Shown: one piece after another, positions 3,409-29,595 of the stretch
Layout of the letters: each line of letters opens with the position of its first letter
Numbering within the stretch: position 1 is the stretch's first letter
Source: a virus
IMG/VR virus record: IMGVR_UViG_3300048589_000281
Location: 1-29,612 of that record
Reading direction: 5' to 3' (one strand)
DNA: 29,612 nt
Position numbers and translations under genes: made by a program
Notes under the pieces: generated by a model
What the model was told of the DNA's origin: nothing
The model's input: only the letters and a program-made list of their open reading frames with translations
Database searches by the model: none

Positions 3409-3425
3409 GGTGAATGGCTCCTGGA

Positions 3426-3453
3426 GGCATCAGTGCCATTTGGCACTGATGCC
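3426..3453. repeat. Dispersed palindrome, copy 2 (compensated variant)
   Basis: Arms read GGCATCAGTGCCA and its exact reverse complement around a TT centre. Compared with the usual arm GGCATGAACGCCA there are three substitutions, each matched on the other arm. It fills the gap between the metallopeptidase gene and the 1122-aa gene and ends two bases before the latter's ribosome binding site. Confidence 0.9.
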
Positions 3454-3463
3454 CCTCGGGTGG

Positions 3464-4816
3464 TCAGTATTGGATCGGGGTCCACGGGCCTTCGGGGTTC
3501 TTGAAGCTGTGGGGCCGCATGCCCTTCAACGGCCGTGCCAGGCCGGGGGCCAGGGACGCGCCCGCCGCCCCCAGGCCCAGGGCCACCGCCCAATCGTTCG
3601 ACGGGTCGTCATCGGTGGCCGCGATGCCCGCGCCACCCAGGCCCACGCCCGCGCCCATGAACTGTGTGGGGCTCACGCCACTCTGGCCCACCGGCATGGA
3701 CCCCTTGTCGCCACGCAGGAACCGGCCAAGCTGGTCGGTGAACGCCTTGTGGCGCTCGGTGCTTGGGCCTCCGAGCCCGGCGTACAACTGCTGCACGAAG
3801 CTGGGGTCAAGCTGGTCGGGGTCGGTCATCTGGCCCATCGCACGGTCCCTGGCCAGCTTGGACCAACCCTCGGCCACCATCTCGGCGGGCTGAGACGCGC
3901 CGTACCGCGACAGGTTCGCCGCGACCTCTGGGGAGACGATCTCGTCCCACCACCGGATCGCGTTTTCGTCCTGGTCCTCGATGCTGTTGCCAGCGCCGTA
4001 CACGCCCCGATCATGAAGCAGGCGGTCGAGGAGCTTCTCATCCGAGAGGGCACCGTACTGATACCTGCCGTCGATGTTGTCGTGGTGCAGGGCGTGGCCC
4101 ACCTCGTGCGTCCCCGCGTGCAGCGGCACGGGCATGTCGGTCGAGAACCAACCCCTGTTCGTCCTGTCCGGTCGTCCAGTGATGGCCTCGATCATCTCGG
4201 CGGCGTTCGGGTCGCCCGTCCAGATGTCGGGCCGAAACCGATTGATCCGCACCTCGTTGTCGAGCGGGAAAAACCCGGCGTAGGACGACGCGAGTTCGTT
4301 GTTGCCGCGACCGATCACGCCCGCGTGGCGCTCGACCCGCTCCACGTCGTCACCCAAACCGAACTTCACGCCCGCCGTGTCGGCCAGCCGCTTGAACTGG
4401 CCGATGGGCGTGGCCGTGTCGTTCATGTGCGACAGGAACTCGGCGTCATCGACGTAGGGCATCGCCGCCACAAGGCCCGAACTCTTTCCCAGGACCGACC
4501 GCGCCGCCTTAGACAGTCGGCCCGCGCCAAAGATCGCGGCGGCACCCGCGCCCAAATGGAACGGGTCCACCGCCTGCTCGACGCCCGCGCCCAGGATCGA
4601 GTCGGCCAGGCTGTCCTCTGGCCGGGCCAGGCCCCACTTGCGGGCGATCTCCAGGCCCGAGGTGTTGTCGTTCGGGTCGGTGAGCCCGAGCGAGTCGCTG
4701 AACGGCACCGCCGCGAGCGCCTCGCGGGGCTTGCCGCCCAGCACGCCACGCGCCGCGCGGAAGGGCTTGTCGATCGACGACAGGCCGTAGTCGAGAGCGC
4801 CCATGAACCCGGACAT
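3464..4816 (-). CDS. Virion-associated zinc metallopeptidase (HExxH)
   Basis: A protein of 450 residues. The zinc-binding motif HEVGHALHH is at residues 237-245. A downstream segment, SRYGASQPAEMVAEGW (about residue 325), supplies a probable third ligand Glu, the arrangement seen in phage- and toxin-associated zincin peptidases. The C-terminus has a Gly/Ala-rich hydrophobic stretch. The start chosen is the ATG with GGGAGA seven bases upstream; the frame stays open further upstream through the palindrome (MAFMPWF...), but those ATGs lack a good ribosome binding site. It lies between Pro-rich virion genes and the ejection-type protein, so it may process virion proteins or act on the host envelope during entry. 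The substrate is unknown. Confidence 0.7.
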   Translation of the reverse strand: MSGFMGALDYGLSSIDKPFRAARGVLGGKPREALAAVPFSDSLGLTDPNDNTSGLEIARKWGLARPEDSLADSILGAGVEQAVDPFHLGAGAAAIFGAGRLSKAARSVLGKSSGLVAAMPYVDDAEFLSHMNDTATPIGQFKRLADTAGVKFGLGDDVERVERHAGVIGRGNNELASSYAGFFPLDNEVRINRFRPDIWTGDPNAAEMIEAITGRPDRTNRGWFSTDMPVPLHAGTHEVGHALHHDNIDGRYQYGALSDEKLLDRLLHDRGVYGAGNSIEDQDENAIRWWDEIVSPEVAANLSRYGASQPAEMVAEGWSKLARDRAMGQMTDPDQLDPSFVQQLYAGLGGPSTERHKAFTDQLGRFLRGDKGSMPVGQSGVSPTQFMGAGVGLGGAGIAATDDDPSNDWAVALGLGAAGASLAPGLARPLKGMRPHSFKNPEGPWTPIQY

Positions 4817-4838
4817 CGCGGTGTCTCCCAAGAACCAG

Positions 4839-4866
4839 GGCATGAACGCCATTTGGCGTTCATGCC
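4839..4866. repeat. Dispersed palindrome, copy 3
   Basis: Perfect 13-bp arms with a TT centre on the plus strand. It sits between the stop codon of the Met/Pro-rich gene (seven bases away) and the start of the metallopeptidase gene. Confidence 0.95.
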
Positions 4867-4873
4867 TCAGCGA

Positions 4874-5434
4874 TCAGAACCCCATCATCCCGCCCATGCC
4901 CAGGTCGGGCATGAGCCCGGACGTGCCGGGCGTTGGGCTACCCGGCATGCCGGGGCCACCAGGCGAGCCACCCACGCCCATCTGGCCCAGGGCCAGCAGT
5001 TGCAGGAGCGCCTCCAGCCCCATGTTAGGGTCGGCGGTGCCCATGCCACCCAGGTCGGCCGAGCCCATCGGGCCAGCCGAGTAGGGGTCTTGGCCACCAC
5101 CCATCGACAGGTTGAGCGCCTGCATCAGGGCCGAGCCGTCCATGTCGGCGTTGAAGCCAGGGTCGGCCTCCATTGGCGACCCACCCGGTGGCAGGCCGGG
5201 AGGCCCCGGTGGCATGGCGGGCGCGGGCGGCGGGCCGAGCCCGTTGAGCATCGCCGCCATCGGGTCCATGCTGCGGCCGGGTCGCGGCATGGTGGGCGAC
5301 GGCATGAGCTGCGGCGGCATGGGTGGCATGCCGGGCGGCATTCCGGGTGGTCCCATGCCAGGGGGCATCTTGCCCTGCGGGGGCATGCCGGGGGGCATTC
5401 CGGGCGGTCCTTGCTGGCGGGGCGGCGGGAACAT
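4874..5434 (-). CDS. Pro/Gly/Met-rich low-complexity virion protein
   Basis: A protein of 186 residues. The first 60 are almost wholly Pro, Gly and Met in GMPPGMPP-like units; a short helical stretch (about 110-155, with ALMQALNLSMG and LEALLQLLALGQ) is followed by a second Gly/Pro/Met-rich tail. GGAG lies 8 bases before the ATG, only 12 bases after the TAA of the preceding gene, so the two are probably co-translated. I recognise no domain. The unusual composition suggests a disordered linker or assembly factor of the virion. The real extent of the coding region is supported by the ribosome binding site and tight packing. Confidence 0.6.
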   Translation of the reverse strand: MFPPPRQQGPPGMPPGMPPQGKMPPGMGPPGMPPGMPPMPPQLMPSPTMPRPGRSMDPMAAMLNGLGPPPAPAMPPGPPGLPPGGSPMEADPGFNADMDGSALMQALNLSMGGGQDPYSAGPMGSADLGGMGTADPNMGLEALLQLLALGQMGVGGSPGGPGMPGSPTPGTSGLMPDLGMGGMMGF

Positions 5435-5446
5435 GGGACAGGCTCC

Positions 5447-7321
5447 TTACTGTGCGGTGGCGGGGTTGAACATCTCGGGGAACAGTCGCTCCAGCAGACG
5501 CATGTTCGCGTCGGCGTCCTCGCGGCCCCACGGCGACAGACCGTGGCGTCCCATGAAACCGGGCTGCATCGACTCGTACTGCTCGCGCACCTGGCCGGGG
5601 AACCGCTCGTTCATGAAGTCGCGGACCTGGCCCATGCCTCCTTCGCCATCCATGAGCCCGCCCTGCTCGATCGCGCCGCGAACCTGCGAGAGCGATGCAT
5701 CGGGCGGGATGGAACCGAGCGCGCCGGGGGCCGCTGGCTTCGAGAGCGAGCCGGGGGCCAGGCCCCGGAGCCGCTCGATGATGCCGAGCTGTTCGGGCGG
5801 CATTCGCATGAGCGCCTCGATCTCGGCACCAGGCCCCATGCCTTGGCCGCGAACCTCTGCGGCCTTGATCTCGGCGGCATTGCGAGCGGCGTCCATGCGC
5901 TCCTTCGAGTCGAGTTCGGCCTTGAGCGCATCCGGCACGATGCCGCCGTTCATGTGCATCAGGTAGAGCTTGGCCGATTCGTTGTCTCCGTTCATGCCGC
6001 GAAAGCGAAGCTCGTTCAGGAACTTGTCGTTGTAATACTTGTCGAACCTGTCCGAGTCGCCGCCTGCCATCTCGACGCCGGTCCCTGGTGCCGCCTTGAT
6101 GCCCATGCGCTGGTACATCTGGGCCTGGTTCTCACCAGGAAGACGAGTGAATTCGTCCTGTGCCGCTGGCGCGAGCGGCTTGGCCTGGACGCCTGGGTTC
6201 GGCATGGCGGCGGGGCCAGCGATGCCGACGCTCGGCGATGGGGGTTGCGGCGGGGCCAGGCCAGGCCCCACGCCCGCCTTGTCCCAGAGGGCGTTGAGTT
6301 CGTCGGCGCTCATGGTGCCCGAGTTGCCCGACGAGAGGATCTCGTTCGCCTTGAGCATCGCCGGGGGCGGGCCAGGCGCGGCGGGCCTGGGCTGGACAGG
6401 GTCGCCCGCGCCGAGGTAGTTCTCGACGATCCGGTCGTAGCCGCGAGCCAGGTTGCCGCCGAGCTTGCCGTTGTACGCATCGGCCACCGTGTTGCCGATG
6501 TTCTGCGCGGCCTGGAACGGGAGCCCGACAACGCTATCCGCCATGTTGCTCCCGAAGTTTCCCCACGTCTCGCCATCGCCGTGCGCCATGCGGCGAAGCG
6601 CTTCCTTGGCGTTGCCCGATCGCAGGGCCTCCACCGGCTGAGTGATCATCCCCTTCGCCGTGTTGCCGAGCGACTCCATTGGATGGAGCACGGCCTCGGG
6701 CTGGGCCACCAGGCCAAGGCCCGCCATCGCGGCGGCACCTGGGGCGGCGGCGACGGCGCGGGGCCTGACGGCGGCACCAATGTTCCCAGCCGCAACACCA
6801 ACGCGGCCCGGAATGCCACGAATGCCCGGCACGGGCGCGGCGGCTGGGGCGGCGGTGGCCACGGGGGCGACCGGCGCAACCGGGGGCGTGATCGGGGCCG
6901 CTGCGGGCGGCGTTCGGATCAGGTGCTCCAGGCCCTTGCCCACGCCCGTGAACTTCGGCTTGGGGCTGGCCAGTTCCGGGAACGGCCCGGCCTCGGGCCG
7001 CACCGGGTAGGGCTCGGCGGTCGGGGTCGGCATGCCGATCGGCCTGCGGTCGAGCGGCACCGGGATGTCGCGTGGCCCGGCCGCAAGCGGAAGGCTCGGC
7101 ACGGGAGGCCCCACGAAGCCGGGGGCCACCGGCTGGAGCGGCTTGAGTCCCACCTGGGCCTTGGGTACGAGCTTCTCGCCGGGCGTGCCGGGCGGCTTAA
7201 TCACGGGCGGCTTCGGGCCAGCGGGTGGGTCGAAGCTAGGGTCGAGGAGTCGGCCCACATCAAAGTCGCTGGCCGGGGCCGGGCCTGGCGCGCCGGGCAC
7301 TCCAATCTTTTTCTTTGCCAT
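5447..7321 (-). CDS. Pro/Ala-rich hypothetical virion protein
   Basis: A protein of 624 residues starting at ATG with GAGG six bases upstream (GAGGTGTGCG-ATG, a leader shared almost exactly with the small membrane-protein gene at 23742). The first 200 residues are Pro/Ala/Val-rich and probably disordered. A helical central part (about 205-330) includes ALRRMAHGDGETWGNFG. A further Pro-rich linker leads to a charged helical C-terminal domain of about 230 residues. No family was recognised. Position among structural genes, and the large disordered and helical make-up shared with its neighbours, suggest a minor virion or ejected protein. Confidence 0.55.
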   Translation of the reverse strand: MAKKKIGVPGAPGPAPASDFDVGRLLDPSFDPPAGPKPPVIKPPGTPGEKLVPKAQVGLKPLQPVAPGFVGPPVPSLPLAAGPRDIPVPLDRRPIGMPTPTAEPYPVRPEAGPFPELASPKPKFTGVGKGLEHLIRTPPAAAPITPPVAPVAPVATAAPAAAPVPGIRGIPGRVGVAAGNIGAAVRPRAVAAAPGAAAMAGLGLVAQPEAVLHPMESLGNTAKGMITQPVEALRSGNAKEALRRMAHGDGETWGNFGSNMADSVVGLPFQAAQNIGNTVADAYNGKLGGNLARGYDRIVENYLGAGDPVQPRPAAPGPPPAMLKANEILSSGNSGTMSADELNALWDKAGVGPGLAPPQPPSPSVGIAGPAAMPNPGVQAKPLAPAAQDEFTRLPGENQAQMYQRMGIKAAPGTGVEMAGGDSDRFDKYYNDKFLNELRFRGMNGDNESAKLYLMHMNGGIVPDALKAELDSKERMDAARNAAEIKAAEVRGQGMGPGAEIEALMRMPPEQLGIIERLRGLAPGSLSKPAAPGALGSIPPDASLSQVRGAIEQGGLMDGEGGMGQVRDFMNERFPGQVREQYESMQPGFMGRHGLSPWGREDADANMRLLERLFPEMFNPATAQ

Positions 7322-7340
7322 CGCACACCTCGGGTTTTAG

Positions 7341-7368
7341 GGCATGAACGCCATTTGGCGTTTATGCC
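7341..7368. repeat. Dispersed palindrome, copy 4 (first of a close pair)
   Basis: TT centre on the plus strand. The right arm has one T-for-C change (TTTATGCC), which is a G-T wobble on the plus strand and an A-C mismatch on the minus strand. It lies 19 bp upstream of the Pro/Ala-rich gene's start. The flanking TCACAAGC is shared with the copy at 26238. Confidence 0.95.
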
Positions 7369-7384
7369 TCACAAGCGGGCCAAG

Positions 7385-7412
7385 GGCATGAACGCCAAAT
7401 GGCGTTCATGCC
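7385..7412. repeat. Dispersed palindrome, copy 5 (second of a close pair)
   Basis: Perfect arms with an AA centre on the plus strand, so it faces opposite to copy 4, 16 bp away. It ends two bases before the stop codon of the coiled-coil gene. Confidence 0.95.
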
Positions 7413-7414
7413 TC

Positions 7415-8644
7415 TCAAACGATCCCGGACAGAAGGTTCGCCGCACCGCTGAACAGCCCAACCCGAAGCTGGACCATGTCGCCATTGAGGTCGGTGTAGG
7501 CCGACATGAGCCGACCGTACTGCTCGTTCGCGGCCTCCTGCCCACGCAGAAGAAGCTCCGCGTTGGCCTGGGCCACCTTCGTGGTGAGGTCCACCTCGCC
7601 CTCCACCGCCTCGCGGCTCGCCGCCGCCTGCCGCGACTGACGCAGCATGGCAAGCACGGGCGACGACGACGCGAACCCACGCCCGGCCAGGTCTTGTTCG
7701 TCGCGGACGATGGCGCTGGACGCCCTGGCATCGGCCCGTGCGTACAGGGCGTTGACTTGCTGCCGCACCTGCTGGGGCGTCAGGGCTCCCATGACGGTGA
7801 TCGCGGGGGCAGGCCCCACGGCGGCGATGAGGCTGGCCCACGGCACGCCGCTGCCCCCGACCTGGCCGTCCCGCTCCAGCGCGTCCCGCACCAGCGGGAA
7901 GATTTCCGCCCACCGGGCGTTGGCCCACCCGAGCTTGATGTCGAGCCGCCGCGTCTCGGCGGTTTCGCGAACATTGACGCCGCTGAGTTGGGTGTCGGCC
8001 GAGTAGTTCGAGGCGTCCTTGTTGACCGCAGCCACCGTGGTCGAGGCCGTGCTCTGGATGCCCGCCACCTGCACGTCGGCGTTGGCCCTGGCGTTCGCCG
8101 CCGCCTCGGTGGCGCGGGCCTGGGCCTCGGCGGCTGTCACGCTCGCGTTGGCCTGGATCGTGTCGCCTTCGAGGTTCGTGTTGGCCACGTCGCGAGCGCC
8201 ATCGGCCTGCGTCTGGGCCACCTCCTTGTCGGCGTCGGCGCGGGCGATGGCCGCATCGACCTGGGCTTGCGCGGACTTGTCGGCCGAATCAACCTGGCCT
8301 TCCTTGTCCTGGTCGGCCCGGTAGTTCGAGGCTTCCCGGTTCTGCTCGGCCACGTACTTCTGGGCTTCGGCGGCGGTCGTGGCGATGCCCTGCTGGACGC
8401 CCATCCGCAAGCCTTCGACCGCGATCATCCCATCGACCTGGATCTGCGCGGACTCACACTGTGCGTCCTTGTTGATCTGGGCCGATTCCCGCACGGCGTC
8501 GGCGTGGTTGTCGGCCGCTTGCATCGTGGCGGCAGCCTGAGACGCGGCGGCGTCCCTGGTCGCGTTGGCCGCTTCCTTCGCCGCCTGATACGACGCATCG
8601 GCGTGGAGTACCGCCGTTCTCCATGCTGCTTCGCCGCTGTCCAT
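7415..8644 (-). CDS. Ala-rich coiled-coil virion protein
   Basis: A protein of 409 residues. Residues 5 to about 235 are an almost unbroken Ala/Gln/Asp/Glu-rich heptad region (for example TAAEAQKYVAEQNREASNYR) that predicts a very long coiled coil. The C-terminal 170 residues form a more globular helical part (LIAAVGPAPAITVMGALTPQQV) and end in a hydrophobic tip (GLFSGAANLLSGIV). This resembles phage tail-fibre shafts or DNA-pilot proteins in form only. The start codon is ATG; the only ribosome binding site candidate is GGGG eight bases upstream, inside a hairpin (see 8653-8700). No family was identified. Confidence 0.65.
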   Translation of the reverse strand: MDSGEAAWRTAVLHADASYQAAKEAANATRDAAASQAAATMQAADNHADAVRESAQINKDAQCESAQIQVDGMIAVEGLRMGVQQGIATTAAEAQKYVAEQNREASNYRADQDKEGQVDSADKSAQAQVDAAIARADADKEVAQTQADGARDVANTNLEGDTIQANASVTAAEAQARATEAAANARANADVQVAGIQSTASTTVAAVNKDASNYSADTQLSGVNVRETAETRRLDIKLGWANARWAEIFPLVRDALERDGQVGGSGVPWASLIAAVGPAPAITVMGALTPQQVRQQVNALYARADARASSAIVRDEQDLAGRGFASSSPVLAMLRQSRQAAASREAVEGEVDLTTKVAQANAELLLRGQEAANEQYGRLMSAYTDLNGDMVQLRVGLFSGAANLLSGIV

Positions 8645-8652
8645 GATGTGTG

Positions 8653-8700
8653 CCCCATTGGTTTTCCGTGGCTTTCGCTATGGAAAACCTACCGATGGGG
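8653..8700 (-). promoter_or_regulatory. Leader hairpin covering the coiled-coil gene's ribosome binding site
   Basis: GGTTTTCC and GGAAAACC (8660-8667 and 8682-8689) form an 8-bp stem. On the minus-strand RNA it is capped, after a small internal loop, by GC-GAAA-GC, a GNRA-type tetraloop. An outer pair CCCCAT/ATGGGG closes the structure and includes the GGGG that would serve as ribosome binding site of the gene starting at 8644. This is the only gap over 40 bp in the structural block that lacks the dispersed palindrome. There is no T tract, so it is not a simple terminator. Confidence 0.5.
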
Positions 8701-8704
8701 CGGC

Positions 8705-10453
8705 TCATGACGGCGGAAACCGATTCGACATGGGGTAGGCGCGGCTGGGGTCGTCCAGCTCCGTGGCGTGCCTGGGGTCGTGGTCGCGGTTGGGCAGGCC
8801 CGTGGGTGGCTGGTTGGCCAGATTGAAGTGGCCCACGATCAGCGCGTGAAGCGACCCGCTCGACACCGTGTCGGTGGTGCCGCCGATCTCGAACCCGAGT
8901 TCGTCCAGCTTGTGCCGGGTGATCATGGTTTCAAAGTACGCCCTGGTCTTTGGCTCGATCTGACTCAGGTGGTGCTTCATGGCGGCGAACCGCTCGGCGA
9001 GCCTGACGTTGTACTTGACCGCGTTGTCGGCGTCCGACTTGGCCGGGTCGGGCTCGTACCAGTCGTTGGGCGGCTCGCGGAAGTAGATGTTGTACGGGTG
9101 CGTCTCACCGCTCCACGTGGGCGAGTAGATGTCCTGGGCCGACTGAGCGCCGCCCTCGATCAGGCGGTCGAGCGTGGCCTGGAAGTGGTACGACTCGACC
9201 CAATCCTGATCGTCGTACTTGAGGTCATGGCGCGGGAACCGCGATGTCTCGCCGCCCGTGTTCAGGAAGCTCGGCTCGCCGGGGAACGCGAACCGGGCCG
9301 CGATCGGATGGATCACCGTGCGGTAGCCGTGGAAGCACTTGTGGCCCTCGCGGAGCTTGGCGAGCTTGCCGCGTGGGAAGCCGTACTGGTCCACCATTTC
9401 GATAGTCTCGCTGGTGTCGCCCATCCAGCCCGACCAGCTTGGTTCGTCCCACGGGCCTTCGCCAATCTTGGGGCAGTTCACCGACGTGCGCCCCGACTCC
9501 CAGGTCGCGGGGGACCAGATCGACTCGTTCAGGTCGTGGCCGATCATCGGCCCCCAGCAGAAATCGTGCATCAGCGCTTCGGCCGTGGTCCTGGGCGGTG
9601 CGTATTCGTAGCCGGTCGCGGGCATGCCCATGTAGACGTGCAGGAAATCGGTGCCCGCGAAGTGGTCGCAATGACCGCTGCCGCCGTAAGCGTCAGGCCC
9701 CAACATCCAGAGCGGGCCACGCGCCGCGTGGATCGGCTTGTTCGCGTCGTCGAGCGGGTTGAACACCACCTCGCCCCGGATCGGCTCGTAGGTCGCGCGG
9801 GTGATGTCGGCGGGGATGAACTGGCAGATTTGGACCCACACGAGCCCAGCGTAGGCCGTCTCGATGTCACGCTTGACCTGCTTGCACGCGGCGATCAGGC
9901 GGTCATACTCGGCGCGGATCGGGTTGTCGATCACGGCCCGCTTGCGGTACTTGCGTGGCCCCTCAACCTCGCCAATCTCGCGCTTGTGTTCGGGGTGCCA
10001 GCCGATCAGTTGGTGGCTGACGCCGAAGTGGGGGTCGGCCAGCCAGTCGATCAGCGAGTAGCCGCCGCCGTGGGAGAACATCAGCGACCCCTCGCTGTTC
10101 TCGCTTGTAATTCCTTGCCACGCCGCTGGCACGTCGTGGTGCCCGTACAGGCCCATGTCGCTGAACCGCGACACGAGCGTGAAGTTGTCGCAGTATAAGC
10201 GCGGCGGGACCAGCACCGACAGGAACACGACCATCGGCGGGCGGCAGAGCTGGCCCGCCTCGGGCCACCGCGTGGGCACGTCATGAAGCTGGTTCGGCGA
10301 GATCAGGCCCGACGCCTGGCCGGGCATGAACATCGCGGGCATCTTGCCGTCGAAGTAGCTCTCACGCACCGGGACCAGGCGATCACGGTTGTACGAACCG
10401 TGCGTGCCCTTGATCGTGAACGGATGGCCGGGCTGGTTGTGGGCGTTGCTCAT
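8705..10453 (-). CDS. Unrecognised virion protein, 582 aa
   Basis: A protein of 582 residues, starting in an ATGA overlap with the stop of the preceding gene, which implies coupled translation. It is rich in Trp, His, Tyr and Pro, unlike the Ala/Gly-rich neighbours, and looks like a compact globular protein: a beta-rich N-terminal 100 residues with RLVPVRESYF and PPMVVFLSVLVPPRLY, a helix around 175-200 (RAEYDRLIAACKQVKRDIE), and a helical C-terminal quarter. I could not place it in a family. Being large, globular and in the structural block, it is one of few candidates here for an abundant capsid or tail protein, but nothing in the sequence proves that. Confidence 0.6.
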   Translation of the reverse strand: MSNAHNQPGHPFTIKGTHGSYNRDRLVPVRESYFDGKMPAMFMPGQASGLISPNQLHDVPTRWPEAGQLCRPPMVVFLSVLVPPRLYCDNFTLVSRFSDMGLYGHHDVPAAWQGITSENSEGSLMFSHGGGYSLIDWLADPHFGVSHQLIGWHPEHKREIGEVEGPRKYRKRAVIDNPIRAEYDRLIAACKQVKRDIETAYAGLVWVQICQFIPADITRATYEPIRGEVVFNPLDDANKPIHAARGPLWMLGPDAYGGSGHCDHFAGTDFLHVYMGMPATGYEYAPPRTTAEALMHDFCWGPMIGHDLNESIWSPATWESGRTSVNCPKIGEGPWDEPSWSGWMGDTSETIEMVDQYGFPRGKLAKLREGHKCFHGYRTVIHPIAARFAFPGEPSFLNTGGETSRFPRHDLKYDDQDWVESYHFQATLDRLIEGGAQSAQDIYSPTWSGETHPYNIYFREPPNDWYEPDPAKSDADNAVKYNVRLAERFAAMKHHLSQIEPKTRAYFETMITRHKLDELGFEIGGTTDTVSSGSLHALIVGHFNLANQPPTGLPNRDHDPRHATELDDPSRAYPMSNRFPPS

Positions 10454-21244: not shown

Positions 21245-23194
21245 TCACATCGGGGCACCGTCTCCGGGCTGGTTCTGCGACCCCTTGCCATCGGCAACCT
21301 CCTCGCCGGGGGCGACCGGCGCGGGCGGCGGCGGGATGGCGGCACGCAGCAGGTAGCGGCCGGGGTCGAGCGACCGGCTCTTGGCCATGTCGCTGATCAG
21401 GTTGTTCAGCGGCTCGATGTCGCCCGTGGCGGTCGAGTACGCCTGGATCACGGGGCCGATCGCGTTGAACATCTCGGTCATGGTCTGGCTCTCCCATTGC
21501 TTGTTCGGGCGCTGGGTGGAGCCGCTCTCGACCGAATACTCAAGCTGACGCGCGGCCATCACATAGTCGGTGGTGGCGACGAACTGGTCCCACGCCCACG
21601 AGCCCATCGAGCCAAGCAGGACCGCCACGTCAGCCCCGGTCAGGTGGTGCCGCGCGGCGAGCGCTTCCTTGGCGGCGACCTCGCTCATCCACGCCTCGAC
21701 CTGGCCCGCCATGTCGTCGGGGCGAATGCTCATGTTCTGATTGCGGAGACTCACCTCGGCGGCGCTGCGGATCTGCGTCGAGCCGCCCTGGCCGTACATC
21801 AGCTCGGTGAGGCCCACCCGCTTGTCGAAGTTGTTCTCGACCGCCTCGATCATGCGCCACACGTCGCCGTTGACCTCCGGGTGCTGGAGGAACTGCACCA
21901 GCTCCGAGATCGTGCCGTGCTCGGACTCCAGTTCCAGGAGCGACAGGTCGCGGCCTTCGAGGATGGTCGTCTTGATGTCTTCACCGAGTGACTTCTTCAG
22001 GGCGATGAAGTCGCGGCATGAGGTGCGGATGCGCCCCATCAGGAAGCTCATCACCCAATTCAGGAACTTCAACTCGCCCAGGCCCGCCTTCAGGTGCGGC
22101 ATCGGCCACGGGCAGTTGTGGACCTCGTGGAAGTCGAGCAGCGTGACCGGCCAGCCGTCGTCGGCCCAATACGGCGTCGGCCACGCCACCGACTGGAACA
22201 CGCGGGCCGGGTCGGACTGGAACGACGGATCGTTGGTCAGGTCGGGCGACAGGTTCAGCGGGAACGGATTGTCGGGTGACACCACCAGGAAGCAGTAGTC
22301 GCCGAACGGTTCGAGCGCGGCGCGGATGGACGGCCGCATGCCCGACAGGCGACCGCCCAGGCCCATCTTCGACCACACCTGATAGATGGTGATCAGGTCG
22401 TTGGTGTAGCCACGCTTGCGGTCGTACTGCACGTCCGAGGACACGTCGGCCATCGCCTGGATGCCCTGGCTCTCGCTGTTGCCCTTGAGACTGCCACGGC
22501 GCAGGTTGTAATCGCGCTCCACCTGCCAGACCGGGAGCACGCGGCGGCGGGCGATCCAGGCGGCGCGGGCGATGCTCGTGGCGTCCGGGTCCACCAGCAG
22601 ATCATCGACCGATTCCCAGCACGTGCGCACCGCCTTGAAGCTCGCGGCGGGCGGCGTGTACAGCTCGGTCCAGAGACACCCCCTGCCCTTGATCAGCGCC
22701 TCGTTGATCGCGGTCCTGGCCTCCTGGCTCAGGCCGAACTCGTTCGGCGTCCAGTTGAGGTAGCCCTCCAGCAAGACGCCACGGAGCCCGTCCGTGCGGA
22801 CGCGGGCGTCCTCCTGCATGATCATCGACTGATACGTGTACGGGTCGGGGAAGAACTCGGGTGGTATCTGGATGGGCATGCGCGGTCGCACGGTGCGCAC
22901 GGGGTTGGCGTGGTACATCGCCGGGCCGAAGATCGTGACGAACTCAAATGCCTTGTTGACCGACACCTTGAAGTCGGGCATCGGGAACCCGTCGCCGTCG
23001 CCCATCCCGGCGAGCGAGCCCATCAGTTCATCCCAATCGCGTGGCCCAGCGTAGAACTGGTTGCACTCGGCCGCAGCCGCCGTGAACACGCGCTCCTTGT
23101 GCTTCTTGGCCTGCTCAATGGCTGAGGCCCACTGACCGACGACGGCCCGCAGGACCGGGTCGATCTCGGACGGCGCGTAGTTTTCGACGGCCAC
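21245..23194 (-). CDS. Portal protein (podovirus type)
   Basis: A protein of 649 residues starting at GTG with AGGGAG eight bases upstream. It carries the features of a large phage portal: an N-terminal helical part (VLRAVVGQWASAIEQAKKH), the FKVSVNKAFEFVTIFGPAMY segment, a central region reporting on neighbours (DDLLVDPDATSIARAAWIARRR), the long helical stem (FLNWVMSFLMGRIRTSCRD), and the GLTELMYGQGGSTQIRSAAE stretch followed by a helical crown. A Pro-rich tail (RAAIPPPPAPVAPGEE) ends the protein. It forms the dodecameric ring through which the terminase packages DNA. Its order after the terminase is the usual one. Confidence 0.8.
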   Translation of the reverse strand: MAVENYAPSEIDPVLRAVVGQWASAIEQAKKHKERVFTAAAAECNQFYAGPRDWDELMGSLAGMGDGDGFPMPDFKVSVNKAFEFVTIFGPAMYHANPVRTVRPRMPIQIPPEFFPDPYTYQSMIMQEDARVRTDGLRGVLLEGYLNWTPNEFGLSQEARTAINEALIKGRGCLWTELYTPPAASFKAVRTCWESVDDLLVDPDATSIARAAWIARRRVLPVWQVERDYNLRRGSLKGNSESQGIQAMADVSSDVQYDRKRGYTNDLITIYQVWSKMGLGGRLSGMRPSIRAALEPFGDYCFLVVSPDNPFPLNLSPDLTNDPSFQSDPARVFQSVAWPTPYWADDGWPVTLLDFHEVHNCPWPMPHLKAGLGELKFLNWVMSFLMGRIRTSCRDFIALKKSLGEDIKTTILEGRDLSLLELESEHGTISELVQFLQHPEVNGDVWRMIEAVENNFDKRVGLTELMYGQGGSTQIRSAAEVSLRNQNMSIRPDDMAGQVEAWMSEVAAKEALAARHHLTGADVAVLLGSMGSWAWDQFVATTDYVMAARQLEYSVESGSTQRPNKQWESQTMTEMFNAIGPVIQAYSTATGDIEPLNNLISDMAKSRSLDPGRYLLRAAIPPPPAPVAPGEEVADGKGSQNQPGDGAPM

Positions 23195-23210
23195 GGCTGA
23201 GTCTCCCTGT

Positions 23211-23555
23211 TCAGGGTTGCTCCTCAGCGGTGAGCCCGAACGCCTGTTCGAGCTGGCTGAGTCGCTTCTGGTCGCTCGTGTAGTCCCAGCACCCGGCCTC
23301 ACCGGACGCGACGGTTCGGTTCAGGTCCGGGTCGCTGGCGTGCCGCACGCCGTCCTTGATGAACCCACCCCGCGTGTCAGCGGCGAACACGGTGAGGTTG
23401 AGCGTGCGCTTGCCGACCTGCGTGATCAGGGCTGGCGACGGCTCGCCGTAGGGCGTTGGCATCCACACGCAGGGGCCGATCGATGCGTGCGGCATCTCGT
23501 AGGAGATGTCAGGGGCGGTTGGCTTGGCTTCCGATTTTGGCACCTGTGGCTCCAT
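23211..23555 (-). CDS. SH3-like small conserved phage protein
   Basis: A protein of 114 residues from ATG. The segment from CVWMPTPYGEPSPALITQVG through LNLTVFAADTRGGF to GCWDYTSDQK matches a small family often found beside portal genes, in which a short beta barrel ends in a Trp-containing strand. The C-terminal 20 residues form a helix (KRLSQLEQAFGLTAEEQ). No good ribosome binding site precedes this ATG, and it overlaps the small membrane-protein gene by 47 bases, so translation is probably coupled. A longer form from TTG at 23606 is possible. Confidence 0.55.
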   Translation of the reverse strand: MEPQVPKSEAKPTAPDISYEMPHASIGPCVWMPTPYGEPSPALITQVGKRTLNLTVFAADTRGGFIKDGVRHASDPDLNRTVASGEAGCWDYTSDQKRLSQLEQAFGLTAEEQP

Positions 23556-23785: not shown

Positions 23786-25776
23786 CAGTAGAGCTGGATC
23801 GAACCCCCAACAGGGGACTGGTTCGCGGCCTTCTTCTTCTTGCTCTTGATGTAAGCCGCCGCCCCAACTTCTTTGCGCTTCCTAGGGCGCGGCTTCATGT
23901 ACCGCAAGTTCGCGATTGCAAGATAGCGCCAGGCATCCATCAAATGGTCGTTATGCTTTAATGGTTCGTCCGTGACCACCTGGCCGCGCGTGCCCTTCTT
24001 GTAGACATAGCGCTCGGCCTCCCACATCAGGTTCGGCAGCTTCTCCCACATGAACCCGAACCGTGATCGGCCGTCGCCATCGACGTGCATGGCCTTGCGC
24101 ACCGCCTCGATCCCGGCCTTGACATCGTCGTCGCCCCAGACGAAGCCAGGCCGCGAGAACTTCACGCCCGCCGCCACGAGCGCCTCGCGGTACTGCTCCT
24201 CGATCGTGCGCCCCGATCCCATCTCGGTGATGCGCCCCGCGTGATGGTCGATCCAGCACGCATAGACCTCGCGGTCGCCCATCTTGCCCTTGAACTTCTC
24301 CGCGAACAGCATGGCCGAGCACCGCTTGATGTACAGCTCATCGAACACGATCACGCGGCCCGCCCACTCATGCGACGGCGGCGGCAGCGCGGCGAACAGC
24401 ACGCCGCACACTTGACGGCCAGGGTCCACGGAAGCGACCACGCACCAGTCGTCGGGGATGGGCACCATCAAGGGAACGCGGTGCGCGCCCTTGGGGCTGA
24501 ACTCGGGATAGATCCGCATGCCCACCAGCGCGAACTCGCCGAGCACGCGGATGCGGTACTCGTCCTCGTTGGTGGCCACCTGCTTGATGAAGACCTGCTT
24601 CGATTCCTCGGACAACCGCGAGTTGTTCAAGAGTGAGACGAAGAACTCCTCGATCGCCGGGTTGGCGTCAGCCGCGCATTCGGCGGCGGCCTGGCTCAGG
24701 TCGTAGAGTTGCTGCGTGCCCACCTGTGGCGTTGCGCCCCAGATGAACTTGCCGCCGATCTGCTTGCCCGTGGTGGCGTCGATGCGGCGGCGGTCCACGA
24801 GACGGGCGCTCATCTCGGGATACCAGGCCGGGTGCTCGATTTCCTCATCGAACCAGATGAAGTCCACGTCCCACCCCTGTGGGGGCGCGCCGAGCGACGA
24901 GAAGAACGTGATCTCCCATCCGGTCTTGAGCCGCACCGTCTTGGGGATCTCCTCCCGCTTGTTCTCCCACGAGATGTCCTTCGCGGAGTAGAACCGCCGT
25001 GGGATCAGGGGCGGCGCTGGCTTGGCGAGGTGCTCGCGGCCCGCGTCCAGGATCGGGTCGAAGGCCCGTAGCTCGCCCGTCTCGGTGTCGATGATGACCT
25101 GGAACGCGCCAGGCTTGAACAGCTTGCGGTACATGACCTTCGAGCAATGCAGAAGGTCTTTGCCAACCGCGATCGCGCGACCGGCGTCGGTCGGGTACTT
25201 GCCGAACGGGTCTTGGCCGGTGAGTGCGCGGGCGACTTCGGCCGCTGAGGCGAGCGTCTTGCCGCCACGGTTGCCGCCGCGAATGATCCGCTCGGGTGCG
25301 TGGCTTGCATGGAACCGGGCCTGTTCTGGCATCGGCGTGTAGAGCCGCAGCGCCTCGCGGGACCGTCGCACGATCTCAGACAGCACGCCGCGCAGCTCAT
25401 CCGTCTCCATGTCGGTGAGGCGCGTGTCGGGAGGCAGGTCGGGCGTGGTCGGCGGCAGTTCCATCTCGTCGATGGAGGCGTACAGGAGACGCCGTTCGTC
25501 CTCGGCCTCCTGGAGCATGCGCTCCACGTCGGCTTCGGCCCGCTTGATGTCCTGGAAGATGCGCTCTTCGTGCGTAAGCCGGTCGAACGGCGACTTGCGC
25601 GTGGCACGCTCGCGATTGGTGGCGCGCTCTTTCTTGACGGTGGGGTTGGACGACCCGCGCCAGGTCGCGTTGGCCGCGTCGGGCGGCTCGTGCTCACTCG
25701 GGGTGGTCGGGGTCGAACCAGGAGAACTCGTTGTCTGGTTCCTTCGTCGGCCCCCCGGCCCCTTCCTGTGTGCCAT
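23785..25776 (-). CDS. terL: Terminase large subunit
   Basis: A protein of 663 residues, the DNA-packaging motor and nuclease. The ATPase half has Walker A GGNRGGKT (167-174) and Walker B VDFIWFDEE (304-312). The nuclease half has acidic residues in SVDPGR (Asp451), WIDHH (Asp510) and HNDHLMDAWRY (Asp610, Asp614). An N-terminal extension of about 145 residues, Pro/Thr-rich then a charged helix (ERIFQDIKRAEADVERMLQE), is longer than usual and may bind the small subunit. The start chosen is ATG with GAGGGA seven bases upstream; it overlaps the upstream gene by 83 bases. The tail is Lys-rich. Confidence 0.9.
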   Translation of the reverse strand: MAHRKGPGGRRRNQTTSSPGSTPTTPSEHEPPDAANATWRGSSNPTVKKERATNRERATRKSPFDRLTHEERIFQDIKRAEADVERMLQEAEDERRLLYASIDEMELPPTTPDLPPDTRLTDMETDELRGVLSEIVRRSREALRLYTPMPEQARFHASHAPERIIRGGNRGGKTLASAAEVARALTGQDPFGKYPTDAGRAIAVGKDLLHCSKVMYRKLFKPGAFQVIIDTETGELRAFDPILDAGREHLAKPAPPLIPRRFYSAKDISWENKREEIPKTVRLKTGWEITFFSSLGAPPQGWDVDFIWFDEEIEHPAWYPEMSARLVDRRRIDATTGKQIGGKFIWGATPQVGTQQLYDLSQAAAECAADANPAIEEFFVSLLNNSRLSEESKQVFIKQVATNEDEYRIRVLGEFALVGMRIYPEFSPKGAHRVPLMVPIPDDWCVVASVDPGRQVCGVLFAALPPPSHEWAGRVIVFDELYIKRCSAMLFAEKFKGKMGDREVYACWIDHHAGRITEMGSGRTIEEQYREALVAAGVKFSRPGFVWGDDDVKAGIEAVRKAMHVDGDGRSRFGFMWEKLPNLMWEAERYVYKKGTRGQVVTDEPLKHNDHLMDAWRYLAIANLRYMKPRPRKRKEVGAAAYIKSKKKKAANQSPVGGSIQLY

Positions 25777-26176
25777 CACGTGGTCCCTCGATGGCGGGAT
25801 GGAGTTCGTCACCGCGAATCCGGCCCAGGTAGTGCTCCGCGACCGTCGCCAAATCTCCGTCCGACAAGTCCTCGGGGTTCACCGGCCGCACGATGTCGTG
25901 GGTCGTGTTGGTGACGATCAAACGCATCACCATCTCTAGGTTTCTCTGACGCGCGACGGAGCCGTTGGGGGCCTTCGTGTACTCGCGAAAGATGTCCTCC
26001 GCGAGTCGTCTCGGCCCGCCCCAGACATCGAGCAGGTTTTTGGCAAGCTCTCCCGAGTCGATCAACTGGCCACGACCGGCCAGCGTCTTGCGGATCTCGA
26101 ACACCGCTTCGCCCGGCTTGCCGATCGGGAACGGCTCGGCCGCGTCGTCGAGCGGCCTGTGATTGCGGTCAGCCAC
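25694..26176 (-). CDS. Terminase small subunit candidate
   Basis: A protein of 160 residues starting at GTG with AAGGAGG six bases upstream. It is mainly helical (SGELAKNLLDVWGGPRRLAEDIFREYTKAP, then NLEMVMRLIVTNTTHDIV) with an acidic C-terminal tail (EFSWFDPDHPE). It is the first gene of the minus-strand block and overlaps the start of the large terminase, the usual place for the small subunit, which recognises the packaging site. No sequence signature proves it; the call is by position and helical make-up. Confidence 0.5.
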   Translation of the reverse strand: MADRNHRPLDDAAEPFPIGKPGEAVFEIRKTLAGRGQLIDSGELAKNLLDVWGGPRRLAEDIFREYTKAPNGSVARQRNLEMVMRLIVTNTTHDIVRPVNPEDLSDGDLATVAEHYLGRIRGDELHPAIEGPRDGTQEGAGGPTKEPDNEFSWFDPDHPE

Positions 26177-26356: not shown

Positions 26357-27610
26357 ATGATGACGAACCGACAGCTCACGTTCTGGCGGCAACTGCTTCG
26401 GCCGTTCCCGCCGCAGCACTACTCGGTCGTCCCCGGCCGCAAGGGCAAGGACGGCCAGCCGCTCGTGTACCTCGACGCGCGGGTCATCAGGATCAGGCTC
26501 ATCGAGGAACTCGGGCTCTCGGGCTGGAAGCAGGAGTTCCGGCCGATCGAGTCGGGCCTGATCTGCCGGTTGTCGATCCTCGCCCCTGACCACTCCGACG
26601 CGGGCTGGGAGTGGGCCACGCAGGAGGACGGCGGCGGCGTCGAGAACATGGGCCGCAACGACCGCCAGAGCGGTGAGTGGATCGAGGACGACGACAACGC
26701 GGCGAAGGCCAGTTTCACCAACTCGTTCCGGCGCGCGGCGGCGGCGTTCGGCTTCGGGATCGAGCTGTACAAGGTCGGCGTCCCGGAGTGGATGTCTGAT
26801 ATGTTCAGCGGTCAGACCCACACCTATCGCCAGCCCCAGCAAGGCCCCCAGGGTGCCCCACAAGGCAACGGGGGCGGTGGTGGCTACGGAAACGGCACCA
26901 ACGGCAACGGAGGCGGCCAGCGGCCCCCTGGCCCCTCCACCAACGGCAACATGAACCCGCCCGGCGCGGCCCGAGCGGGCAGCAAGGCGGGCTACGCCTG
27001 GGCCATGAAAACCGGCGAGCACTTCGGCGTGAGCGTGCTCGACCGCATGAGCACGGTGGCCACAAAGCTCGGCTATCCGACCCGCACTGACCAGTGGGAC
27101 GGCGCTCAGATGGAGGAGGTGGTCAAGTACACCGTGGCGTGGATCAGGACGCTCGACAACTACAACGGCGAGTTCGATGCGTGGGCCGAGGCCAACGCGG
27201 GGCCTTACGGGTTGCCCGACCCGGCCGAGCTGGGCGATGGCCCCTCGCGGGTGGTGCAGGAACAGGCGGCACCGGCACCGCAGCAGGCACCGCCGCAGCA
27301 GGCGACACCGGCCCCCGACAGCGGCCTGGCAATGCAACGCCGGGCGATCATGGCAGCCGCCGAGGCGCTGGTGTTCAAGCAGGCCGGGCGCAAGGCAACC
27401 CGCGAGGAGCTGGTCGCCGTGATCTCCGAGGCGGCGTCGGCCAGCCGCAACGGCCAGGGCGTGATCGGCGAGGTGCTGGAGTCGCTCGGTCGCTGCACCG
27501 ACGCGCTCTGGATGCGGAACGTGGCCAAGTTCCTCACCGAGCAGATCGAGCGGACGGCGCAGGAGGCGACCGCCGACGCCACCGCTGGAGACGACGACAT
27601 CCCTTTCTGA
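26357..27610 (+). CDS. Rad52-type single-strand annealing protein with SSB-like tail
   Basis: A protein of 417 residues starting at ATG with GAGG eight bases upstream. Residues 1-148 are a Rad52/Rad22-type annealing domain: FPPQHYSVVPGRKG, YLDARVIRIRLIEELG, GWEWATQEDGGGVENMG, and the family hallmark DNAAKASFTNSFRRAAAAFG (114-132). A Gly/Asn/Pro/Gln-rich linker (about 157-207) leads to a helical region (207-285), then an Ala/Pro/Gln linker and a helical C-terminal part (326-407). The protein ends GDDDIPF, the acidic tip of bacterial SSB proteins. It probably anneals complementary strands in phage recombination and uses its tail to recruit SSB-binding host enzymes. It starts the plus-strand block. 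Confidence 0.8.
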   Translation: MMTNRQLTFWRQLLRPFPPQHYSVVPGRKGKDGQPLVYLDARVIRIRLIEELGLSGWKQEFRPIESGLICRLSILAPDHSDAGWEWATQEDGGGVENMGRNDRQSGEWIEDDDNAAKASFTNSFRRAAAAFGFGIELYKVGVPEWMSDMFSGQTHTYRQPQQGPQGAPQGNGGGGGYGNGTNGNGGGQRPPGPSTNGNMNPPGAARAGSKAGYAWAMKTGEHFGVSVLDRMSTVATKLGYPTRTDQWDGAQMEEVVKYTVAWIRTLDNYNGEFDAWAEANAGPYGLPDPAELGDGPSRVVQEQAAPAPQQAPPQQATPAPDSGLAMQRRAIMAAAEALVFKQAGRKATREELVAVISEAASASRNGQGVIGEVLESLGRCTDALWMRNVAKFLTEQIERTAQEATADATAGDDDIPF

Positions 27611-27795
27611 TGCTGCGAGGTTCGGAGTTCCGTCACAAGGAAGTGACGGACCCCTTCGTCCTCGCGGTCATGGACCTGTTCAACGCCAAACCCGTTCAGA
27701 TGGAGGTGATCACTCGTGAGCGAACCGATGGAAACACTCAGGTGGGCCGAGACGTACCGCGACCTGGGCCTCTCGCCGCTGCCGAGCGAGCGTGA
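27610..27795 (+). CDS. Small ORF coupled to annealing protein and primase
   Basis: A possible protein of 61 residues. Its ATG overlaps the TGA of the preceding gene (TGATG), suggesting coupled translation. The first 35 residues (for example VTDPFVLAVMDLFNAKPVQM) look like a small helical protein; the last 26 are Arg/Pro-rich, run in the second frame over the start of the primase gene and may be incidental. The stretch before 27716 would otherwise be 105 bases of untranslated sequence. Function unknown. Confidence 0.4.
   Translation: MLRGSEFRHKEVTDPFVLAVMDLFNAKPVQMEVITRERTDGNTQVGRDVPRPGPLAAAERA
27702..27711 (+). promoter_or_regulatory. Unusually strong ribosome binding site
   Basis: GGAGGTGATC is fully complementary to the typical bacterial 16S rRNA 3' end (GATCACCTCC). 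It lies four bases before the GTG at 27716 and fixes that start for the primase gene. Confidence 0.75.
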
Positions 27796-28744
27796 CGAAA
27801 AGAGGCCGCTCAGAAGCCTGGGGGCTTATGGGCGGTTCCGCACGGAGGGCATCCCCGGTTGGGTGTTCACGCCCGATCACTGGACCACGCCCAACATGCA
27901 ACTCCTGTGCGGCGCGAACACGCCTGGCACGTGCAAGATCATCGTGATCGACTGCGACGGCGAGCGGGCGCGCGAGGTGTGGCGGCTCATGTGCGAGCAC
28001 CACGCCTTCACGCCCGACACGTGGGTAGCGCTCACGCCCAGCGGTGGGCGTCACTTCTACTTCCAACTCCCCGACACTGTGGCCGCGTGCCCGAACAAGC
28101 TCTTGTGGGGCGAGTGGGACACGTGGGGCAACGACGGCCAAGGCGGTTGGAAGAAGCACAAAGAAGTGCGGTTGCTTGGGGACGGGTCGCTCGTCGTGGC
28201 CCCGCCGAGCACGCACGTCAAGGTCGGGACCGAGTACGTCTGGTCCATTGGGCGCAACCCACTCGCGCGACCAGCCCTCGAAGCGCCAGCCTGGCTCCTG
28301 GATTCGCCGGCGCTCACGCCGCCCGTCACGCGGCAGACTGTCACTGATCGGGGTCCGTGCGGCTCGCGGCCCCCAAGCAGGACGGGTGCGTGCCAACTGC
28401 CGGGTGGCGCGATCACCGACCTGCGGCAAGCGGTCGCGAGCAACATGGCCGAGGACGACAAGATCAGGCTGGCCCGCGAGTGGGGCTTGCGGTTCACCAG
28501 GGACACGCCCAACCACGACGGCTGGTGCGACTGCCGCGCGATCGACCGCACGGACAGGAACCGATCGGCTGGGTTCAACGCCAGGACTGGCGTCTATCGA
28601 GACGCGAGCACCGGGCAGGTTTTGAGCCTGTTCGACCTGGGCGTGGCCCTGGGCGCGTTCTCGAACTGGACCGAGGCGGTGGTCTGGTGCGCCGAGCATT
28701 TCAAGATCGGAGGGACGGGTGGTGCCAGGGCATCAGGGGCTTGA
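27716..28744 (+). CDS. Primase-polymerase with degenerate zinc-ribbon-like C-terminus
   Basis: A protein of 342 residues starting at GTG. Residues 1-185 match the bifunctional DNA primase/polymerase (PrimPol) fold: basic KRPL near 29-32, the metal-binding IIVIDCDG (75-82, Asp79 and Asp81), the SGGRHFYF motif (109-116) and LLGDGSLVVAPPSTH (153-167). After a linker, residues 260-330 (DGWCDCRAIDRTDRNRSAGF, TGVYRD, LSLFDLGVALG, WTEAVVWCAEHF) resemble a CHC2-like primase domain that has lost most metal ligands, a form I associate with planctomycete proteins. No helicase domain follows. It would start DNA synthesis in phage replication with the annealing protein upstream. Confidence 0.75.
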   Translation: MSEPMETLRWAETYRDLGLSPLPSERDEKRPLRSLGAYGRFRTEGIPGWVFTPDHWTTPNMQLLCGANTPGTCKIIVIDCDGERAREVWRLMCEHHAFTPDTWVALTPSGGRHFYFQLPDTVAACPNKLLWGEWDTWGNDGQGGWKKHKEVRLLGDGSLVVAPPSTHVKVGTEYVWSIGRNPLARPALEAPAWLLDSPALTPPVTRQTVTDRGPCGSRPPSRTGACQLPGGAITDLRQAVASNMAEDDKIRLAREWGLRFTRDTPNHDGWCDCRAIDRTDRNRSAGFNARTGVYRDASTGQVLSLFDLGVALGAFSNWTEAVVWCAEHFKIGGTGGARASGA

Positions 28745-28995: not shown

Positions 28996-29078
28996 AGATA
29001 ACCCGAAGTGTTCCATACTGTACGTCCTCGTGGGCGTAAAGAAAGACGCCTGAGAGGGCGTCGAAACACTGGTTAGGC
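28996..29078. other. Folded element ending in GTTAGGC, attC-like
   Basis: The element closes with TAACC pairing GGTTA and AGTGTT pairing AACACT. Inside are two small hairpins, ACGTCC-TCGT-GGGCGT (29022-29037) and GACGCC-TGAGAG-GGCGTC (29045-29062). The right end GTTAGGC fits the integron core consensus GTTRRRY. The left end AGATAAC fits the partner consensus RYYYAAC only in part, and natural attC sites usually fold as one hairpin, so the identification is tentative. Confidence 0.3.
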
Positions 29079-29112
29079 GTCCGACCGACTGGCGTTGACA
29101 GTGGAGACCATC

Positions 29113-29556
29113 ATGGACAAGTCCACGCTCGACATCCTCACCGAACGGATAGATCGTCTGGAGCGGCAGAATCGCCGCCTCAGACAAGTCGGCGGCTGCG
29201 TCCTGATCGGCGTCACCGTGCTCGGAGCTGTCGCGGCAAAGCCCGCCGACACGGCGGGAATCGTCCGCGCAGTGCAGCTCTTCCTTGTCCACGAGGATGG
29301 AGGAGAGATCCCTTCGGAGCGGGCCGCCTTGACCACCACCCCGCACGATGGGACGATTCTCGTGCTCCGCCACAAGGGGCCGAACCCCTCTCCTCAGATC
29401 GCCCTGAACGCGGCTCCTGACGATCGATCGTTCATCAGCATTAATGGAGCGGACGGCAAGCTCCGGATCTACCTGGGTCTAGAGCCGGATGGTCAGCCGA
29501 AGCTCCTCCTCCAGGATGAGCACGGGAAGGAGCTTTTCAGGGCTCCGGCGAAGTGA
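29113..29556 (+). CDS. Planctomycete-type coiled-coil, one-helix protein with beta repeats
   Basis: A protein of 147 residues starting at the ATG with GGAG six bases upstream (a TTG 18 bases earlier is less likely). Residues 5-27 form a short coiled coil (TLDILTERIDRLERQNRRLR), residues 28-43 a hydrophobic helix (GGCVLIGVTVLGAVAA), and the rest a series of beta units such as VQLFLVHEDGGEIPSERAAL, KLRIYLGLEPDGQPKLLLQD and EHGKELFRA. This layout is common in planctomycete membrane-anchored proteins of unknown function, and the gene is therefore probably host or cargo rather than phage structural. It is bracketed by GGTTAGGCG (29071) and its reverse complement (29587). Confidence 0.65.
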   Translation: MDKSTLDILTERIDRLERQNRRLRQVGGCVLIGVTVLGAVAAKPADTAGIVRAVQLFLVHEDGGEIPSERAALTTTPHDGTILVLRHKGPNPSPQIALNAAPDDRSFISINGADGKLRIYLGLEPDGQPKLLLQDEHGKELFRAPAK

Positions 29557-29586: not shown

Positions 29587-29595
29587 CGCCTAACC
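29587..29595. repeat. CGCCTAACC, inverted partner of 29071-29079
   Basis: A nine-base inverted match to GGTTAGGCG upstream of the last gene. The GCCTAAC within it fits the left-end consensus of an integron attC site (RYYYAAC), 32 bases after the stop codon. The window ends 17 bases later, so the rest cannot be examined. Confidence 0.35.

Follow-up and report, generated by a model that had tools for sequence, protein, structure and literature searches.

What might an annealing protein of a phage do with the acidic tip of bacterial single-stranded DNA-binding protein (SSB) at its own C-terminus? The question is raised by one gene in the window analysed here, a linear virus record of 29,612 bases taken whole and possibly a fragment. 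We conclude, with moderate confidence, that this gene encodes a Rad52-superfamily annealing protein (SSAP) of a planctomycete phage group with an SSB-type C-terminal docking peptide. A first-pass annotation had proposed that such a protein could replace or compete with host SSB and bring recombination partners to phage DNA, an interpretation that our analysis partly supports.

A predicted annealing protein that ends like SSB

The gene and the parts of its product are as follows:

26357-27610, plus strand: Rad52/Erf-type annealing protein (SSAP) gene, 417 aa, stop codon included in the span; PHROG and Pfam matches
26357-26806, plus strand: annealing domain, Rad52 fold, residues 1-150 (model and structure alignment)
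26807-26968, plus strand: linker 1 (residues 151-204), rich in Gly, Asn and Pro; pLDDT low over most of it
26969-27232, plus strand: helical domain 2 (residues about 205-292), shared with tip-less planctomycete-genome Rad52-like proteins
27233-27316, plus strand: linker 2 (residues 293-320), rich in Ala, Pro and Gln; the model shows most of it as disordered
27317-27586, plus strand: domain 3, residues 321-410, three-helix, with a conserved NGxGHxGEVxxSL-TDxxW motif; weak fold match to Sak CTD and lambda Orf/NinB
27587-27607, plus strand: GDDDIPF, an acidic tip of SSB type at the very C-terminus (residues 411-417)

Translation of the gene ends in ATAGDDDIPF followed by TGA, and it is the sole frame with an SSB-type ending among the 379 stop-to-stop frames of at least 40 aa in the window. 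The tip shares with the C-terminal tip of bacterial SSB (SSB-Ct) a run of acidic residues and then I/C-P-F at the extreme end, but the SSAP, unlike SSB, has no match to PF00436, the OB-fold domain; replacement of host SSB as such, one of the roles first suggested, is therefore not supported.

Assignment to the annealing family, by contrast, was borne out together with the tip. Residues 15-140 match PHROG 1097 ('Erf-like ssDNA annealing protein') at E 9.7e-9, and Rad52_Rad22 (PF04098), the only Pfam match of the SSAP at E <= 1, scores 14.8 bits on the window protein alone against a cut-off of 20.3 and is matched at E <= 0.1 by all 10 group members (best 7.6e-10). In an AlphaFold2 model (mean pLDDT 82, from a 28-row alignment), residues 2-158 align with human RAD52 (8bjm; Z 11.3, rmsd 3.2, 125 residues aligned), and domain 1 also with yeast Mgm101 (Z 9.8) and phage 80alpha Sak (Z 9.3). 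The Rad52 fold and the conserved residues of the annealing domain are common to the SSAP and the Rad52/Erf/Sak superfamily (PF04098, PHROG 1097), on which grounds annealing activity may be presumed. A homologue search with the whole protein returned no relative in viral or genome contigs, but a broader alignment query did find relatives.

The model places disorder at residues 158-196 and 297-320, predicts domain 3 (about 321-410) confidently, and has the tip inside a low-confidence C-terminal end. Gly/Asn/Pro/Gln-rich linkers like those of SSB had been described as leading into the tip; the linkers are present in these two stretches, but domain 3 sits between linker 2 and the tip, so that neither linker adjoins it, and in relatives the tip is conserved while linker composition is not. 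Structure comparison did not clearly assign domain 2 to a known fold, and neither domain 2 nor domain 3 matched anything convincing in Pfam, even at E <= 10. The sole matches in a search of solved structures with the single protein were three antibody chains, which we judged to be chance hits through the glycine-rich linker.

The phage and its probable host

The neighbouring genes used to place the phage are these:

21245-23302, minus strand: probable portal gene; weak PHROG match, 57-71% identity across the SSAP-bearing phage group
23785-25812, minus strand: terminase large subunit, through which the phage group was sampled blind to the tip
25694-26176, minus strand: small conserved phage gene upstream of the SSAP and divergent from it
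27716-28744, plus strand: Prim-Pol primase gene directly downstream of the SSAP (PF09250, E 3.8e-18)

Portal, terminase and the small gene thus run leftward, and SSAP and Prim-Pol rightward. This gene order recurs in the Planctomycetales MAG contig L212 and in a 64-kb virus record whose sequence agrees with that of a prophage in the genome of Singulisphaera sp. GP187 (L292, L338 = L213). Between the window and these two, identity is 57-61% for portal, 51-54% for terminase and 37-40% for Prim-Pol, and the GP187 prophage is the nearest named relative of the window phage. Because these relatives are planctomycete, the host of the window phage is probably a planctomycete too, an assignment made through relatives only.

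Two further observations concern the record itself. Near its right end, GGTTAGGCG at 29071-29079 and its exact reverse complement CGCCTAACC at 29587-29595 flank an ORF at 29095-29556, an arrangement that we take to be reminiscent of an integron cassette core site. An open frame of 2015 codons (2663-8710, plus strand) lies opposite several minus-strand ORFs and is probably a by-product of high G+C.

Conservation of the tip within the phage group

To sample the phage group without regard to the tip, we queried viral contigs with an alignment of terminases, which gave 28 loci. A recognisable SSAP was present in eight of them, seven with a complete end, and none lay within the fetched stretch in the other 20. 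With the window and L212 added, the seven make nine distinct complete SSAPs; L328, which ends inside the SSAP, is not among them, and L213, L292, L295 and L338 are one prophage that was counted once. Eight of the nine end in D[IC]PF: AGDDDIPF in the window (P0001) and in L329, ESNDIPF in L212, DEEDIPF in L213, EDSDCPF in L330, EEEDCPF in L332, PVDDIPF in L337 and SHDDIPF in L335. Close homologues without the tip had been named as a finding that would refute the proposal, and there is one: L331, whose SSAP ends in APEFPW, has lost the canonical end but kept domain 3. Frameshift was considered as the cause of this end and rejected, there being no I/C-P-F end in the three frames around its stop. 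The tip-blind terminase sample rules out chance or artefact as the origin of the tip.

Among the eight full-length SSAPs of the group, mean pairwise identity is 0.72 over the last four residues and 0.19 over the preceding 14, compared with 0.47 for domain 1, 0.34 for domain 2 and 0.33 for domain 3. What stays constant in the tips is the terminal Pro-Phe with the free carboxylate, while acidity varies (SNDIPF, DSDCPF, VDDIPF). This pattern bears on whether the tail acts within the protein. Acidic tails of ssDNA-binding proteins often shield their own DNA-binding surface, as proposed for SSB, T7 gp2.5 and T4 gp32, and the window SSAP, whose tail (residues 400-417) has a net charge of -5 and a pI of 4.1, could tune its DNA binding in the same way by laying the tail on its own DNA-binding groove, no partner being involved. 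Electrostatic shielding does not need a fixed D-I-P-F terminus, however, and it is the acidity before the tip that varies and the Pro-Phe end that stays, so we consider self-shielding quite unlikely.

The combination of an SSB-type tip on an annealing protein and its conservation across a phage group makes partner recruitment the natural reading. Moreover, L335 has the tip but lacks domain 3, and its annealing domain groups with the tip-less planctomycete type; a tip present without domain 3 favours an external partner.

The tip elsewhere in the annealing family

A search of the Rad52 family for C-terminal tips, which the first-pass annotation had called for, set the group apart from the rest of the superfamily. 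Outside the group, 210 complete SSAP loci were compared, 179 of them distinct in length and tail, and only L290 has a tip: this Rad52-type protein of a Bacillota MAG (L290:3622-4467) ends in ITDEDVPF and lies far from the window's group in the tree. In addition, an ERF-family annealing protein (L060:8750-9643) ends in DDDIPF, and the tip is absent in all five of its relatives (L360-L364). L060 and L290 are thus annealing-family proteins with DDDIPF or TDEDVPF ends, like the window SSAP, but neither belongs to its group. L139:4529-5362 is a near miss, ending in DDGLPFE, one residue past the Phe.

The Rad52-like proteins of Isosphaeraceae and other planctomycete genomes (L297, L299-L325) stop after domains 1 and 2, and none of 28 complete frames of planctomycete-genome Rad52-like proteins has a tip at its end. 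The GP187 genome itself encodes one such tip-less protein (L297), about 1.9 Mb from the prophage. A second family-wide scan found the tip in none of 54 complete new frames, which were tip-less relatives only, with no further member of the group. On a tree of 73 annealing domains, obtained by a quick search without bootstrap and containing long branches, the tip state needs five changes, at least four of them forced by well-supported branches. The tip stands at three separate places in this tree (the window's group, L335 and L290), which may reflect repeated gain or recombination.

The layout had been thought undescribed, and indeed no report of a Rad52- or Erf-type protein with an SSB-type tip was found among the titles and abstracts listed by full-text searches of mainly open-access papers. 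It is not unique, however, given the tipped proteins of L060 and L290.

SSB genes and candidate partners on the host side

Whether phage or host encodes a separate SSB has a different answer on each side. No PF00436 SSB was found in the window, in any of eight SSAP-bearing virus records (7.4 to 75 kb, several of them fragments) or on the L212 contig; absence was scored by PF00436, and ssDNA-binding proteins of other folds could remain in these records. On the host side, the GP187 genome and the L212 MAG have one PF00436 SSB each, the former ending in ETDDEDIPF and the latter, on a contig other than L212's, in HEEDDIPF. Within the fetched stretch, an SSB lies near the SSAP in none of seven group loci versus 23 of 106 distinct tip-less viral loci (Fisher p 0.34). 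That the tip stands in for an SSB gene was accordingly dropped as a stand-alone argument, the difference not being significant and 83 of the 106 tip-less viral loci also being without SSB.

As to partners, both host-side genomes (GP187 and the L212 MAG) encode RecO and PriA but HolC (chi) was found in neither, which makes the chi subunit, among the SSB partners first listed, an unlikely one.

The partner could instead be encoded by the phage, in the same module as the SSAP. Prim-Pol lies close to the SSAP in eight of ten related SSAP-bearing loci (it was not detected in L328 and L331; L292 and L338 among the ten are one prophage, and L328 ends inside the SSAP), and the GP187 prophage has a ResIII/DEAD helicase further down from the SSAP. 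The SSAP of that prophage, however, ends in ETIDEEDIPF; its likeness to the tip of the host SSB suggests shared host readers, and no sign of a pocket was seen on a phage protein. We therefore regard binding to the adjoining Prim-Pol or to the helicase, rather than to a host protein, as very unlikely.

Docking to host proteins that read SSB tails is favoured because the Pro-Phe end is constant, because L335 has the tip without domain 3 and because the tip resembles that of the host SSB. We give about an even chance to the view that the window SSAP shows an SSB-like docking peptide to such proteins.

Domain 3 and known SSAP-SSB systems

The predicted structure of domain 3 suggests a further possibility, in which the reader of the tip is the annealing protein itself. 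The best structural match of this domain is the C-terminal domain (CTD) of phage 80alpha Sak (8qe9; Z 7.3, rmsd 2.5, 64 residues aligned), followed by lambda NinB/Orf (Z 6.3-6.5) and then DdrC. According to PMC11846896, the Sak CTD and the C-terminal tail of the phage SSB, down to its last residues, are both required for efficient annealing on SSB-coated DNA. PMC8303780 describes the Red-beta CTD as an SSB-binding three-helix bundle with an Orf-like fold, its interaction with SSB also being reported in PMC9870868, and PMC5499656 reports that phage SSBs interact and cooperate with Sak and Sak4.

By analogy, domain 3 could read SSB tails, the tip being the tail that is read, in the same or another subunit or in another ring; we think this rather unlikely. 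Its outcome, equally doubtful, would be a protein that stays inactive until host SSB tails compete, or rings that are linked to one another. An SSAP with an SSB-tail tip fused on after a Sak-CTD/Orf-like domain, itself a possible reader of such tails, would amount to an SSAP-SSB pair in one chain, showing as well as sensing SSB tails and needing no SSB gene of its own, a proposal that we put forward only tentatively and hold to be improbable. The Z values of domain 3 to Sak CTD and NinB are within the chance range for helical bundles, and sequence profiles connect it to neither Sak nor NinB: among the 60 matches listed of 124 in a profile search with domain 3, there was no NinB or Sak and almost all were calmodulins, judged to be chance. 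Furthermore, L335 has the tip without domain 3 and the tip-less L331 has domain 3, both of which speak against domain 3 as the reader of the tip.

Phage 80alpha Sak, according to PMC11846896, joins an annealing domain to a helical CTD that works with the SSB tail, and domain 3 of the window weakly resembles this CTD; but in 80alpha the tail belongs to a separate SSB protein, whereas the window SSAP has such a tip on its own chain, with no PF00436 gene detected. Likewise, lambda Red-beta is described (PMC8303780) as having a C-terminal three-helix domain linked to SSB that may be compared with domain 3, for which NinB is a weak fold match, but Red-beta and Orf bind SSB while the window SSAP displays an SSB-like tip.

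SSB-type tips on other phage proteins

A pattern scan of viral contigs, limited to DDDIPF followed by a TGA stop, gave at least 120 loci, of which 119 were kept (L029 had no frame) and 116 remained once the short open pieces L040, L045 and L101 were taken out. Among the matches listed for these 116 proteins, Pfam gave PF00436 SSB in 33, ResIII/DEAD helicase in five, ERF in one and DUF669 in one, and PHROGs gave SSB family 44 in 34 and the Gp2.5-like family in two. SSBs, helicases, ERF, DUF669 and Gp2.5-like proteins with this ending indicate that SSB-type tips occur on several kinds of phage DNA protein. The five DDDIPF-ending viral ResIII/DEAD-type helicases, assigned by reading the sequences to L028, L030, L053, L057 and L093, show that phage helicases also bear them.

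In a wider count of 1717 frames of at least 100 aa (L132-L211 and L327-L354), 31 have [DE][ILVC]PF ends: six are SSAPs of the window's group, and 25 are in loci with tip-less SSAPs, 24 of these being 100-156 aa long. By an SSB profile built for this analysis, an SSB with such a tip occurs in 17 of the 79 L132-L211 loci.

A docking model and its implications

We picture docking to host SSB-tail readers as follows. Phage ssDNA would be annealed by rings or filaments of the Rad52-fold domain, with one copy of the tip per subunit left free on a flexible end. The tip would then enter the pocket in which host proteins, RecO or PriA for example, receive the SSB tail; both the pocket interaction and these two proteins as partners are what we infer. 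Phage DNA that is annealed or bound as single strands would thereby obtain partners otherwise recruited by host SSB, and would do so in phages in which no SSB gene was found. One tip per ring subunit would mean high avidity, which would also suit a decoy that floods SSB-tail pockets and draws host repair proteins (e.g. RecQ or RecO) off host SSB as a counter-defence; the tip is on a DNA-annealing protein, however, and nothing points to inhibition over recruitment, so that a decoy seems highly improbable.

Under the docking model, an SSAP that ends in the same docking tag as the host SSB may by itself summon host repair proteins to viral DNA. This reverses the known direction of SSAP-SSB interaction, the annealing protein bearing the docking tag rather than reading it. 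With the tag on an SSAP, recruitment is separable from the coating of ssDNA, and the tag alone can be tested directly. More broadly, our data suggest that the SSB-type tip is a portable module, borne by phage proteins that handle DNA, and such tips might be of help in engineering recombineering proteins for hosts that are sensitive to SSB matching.
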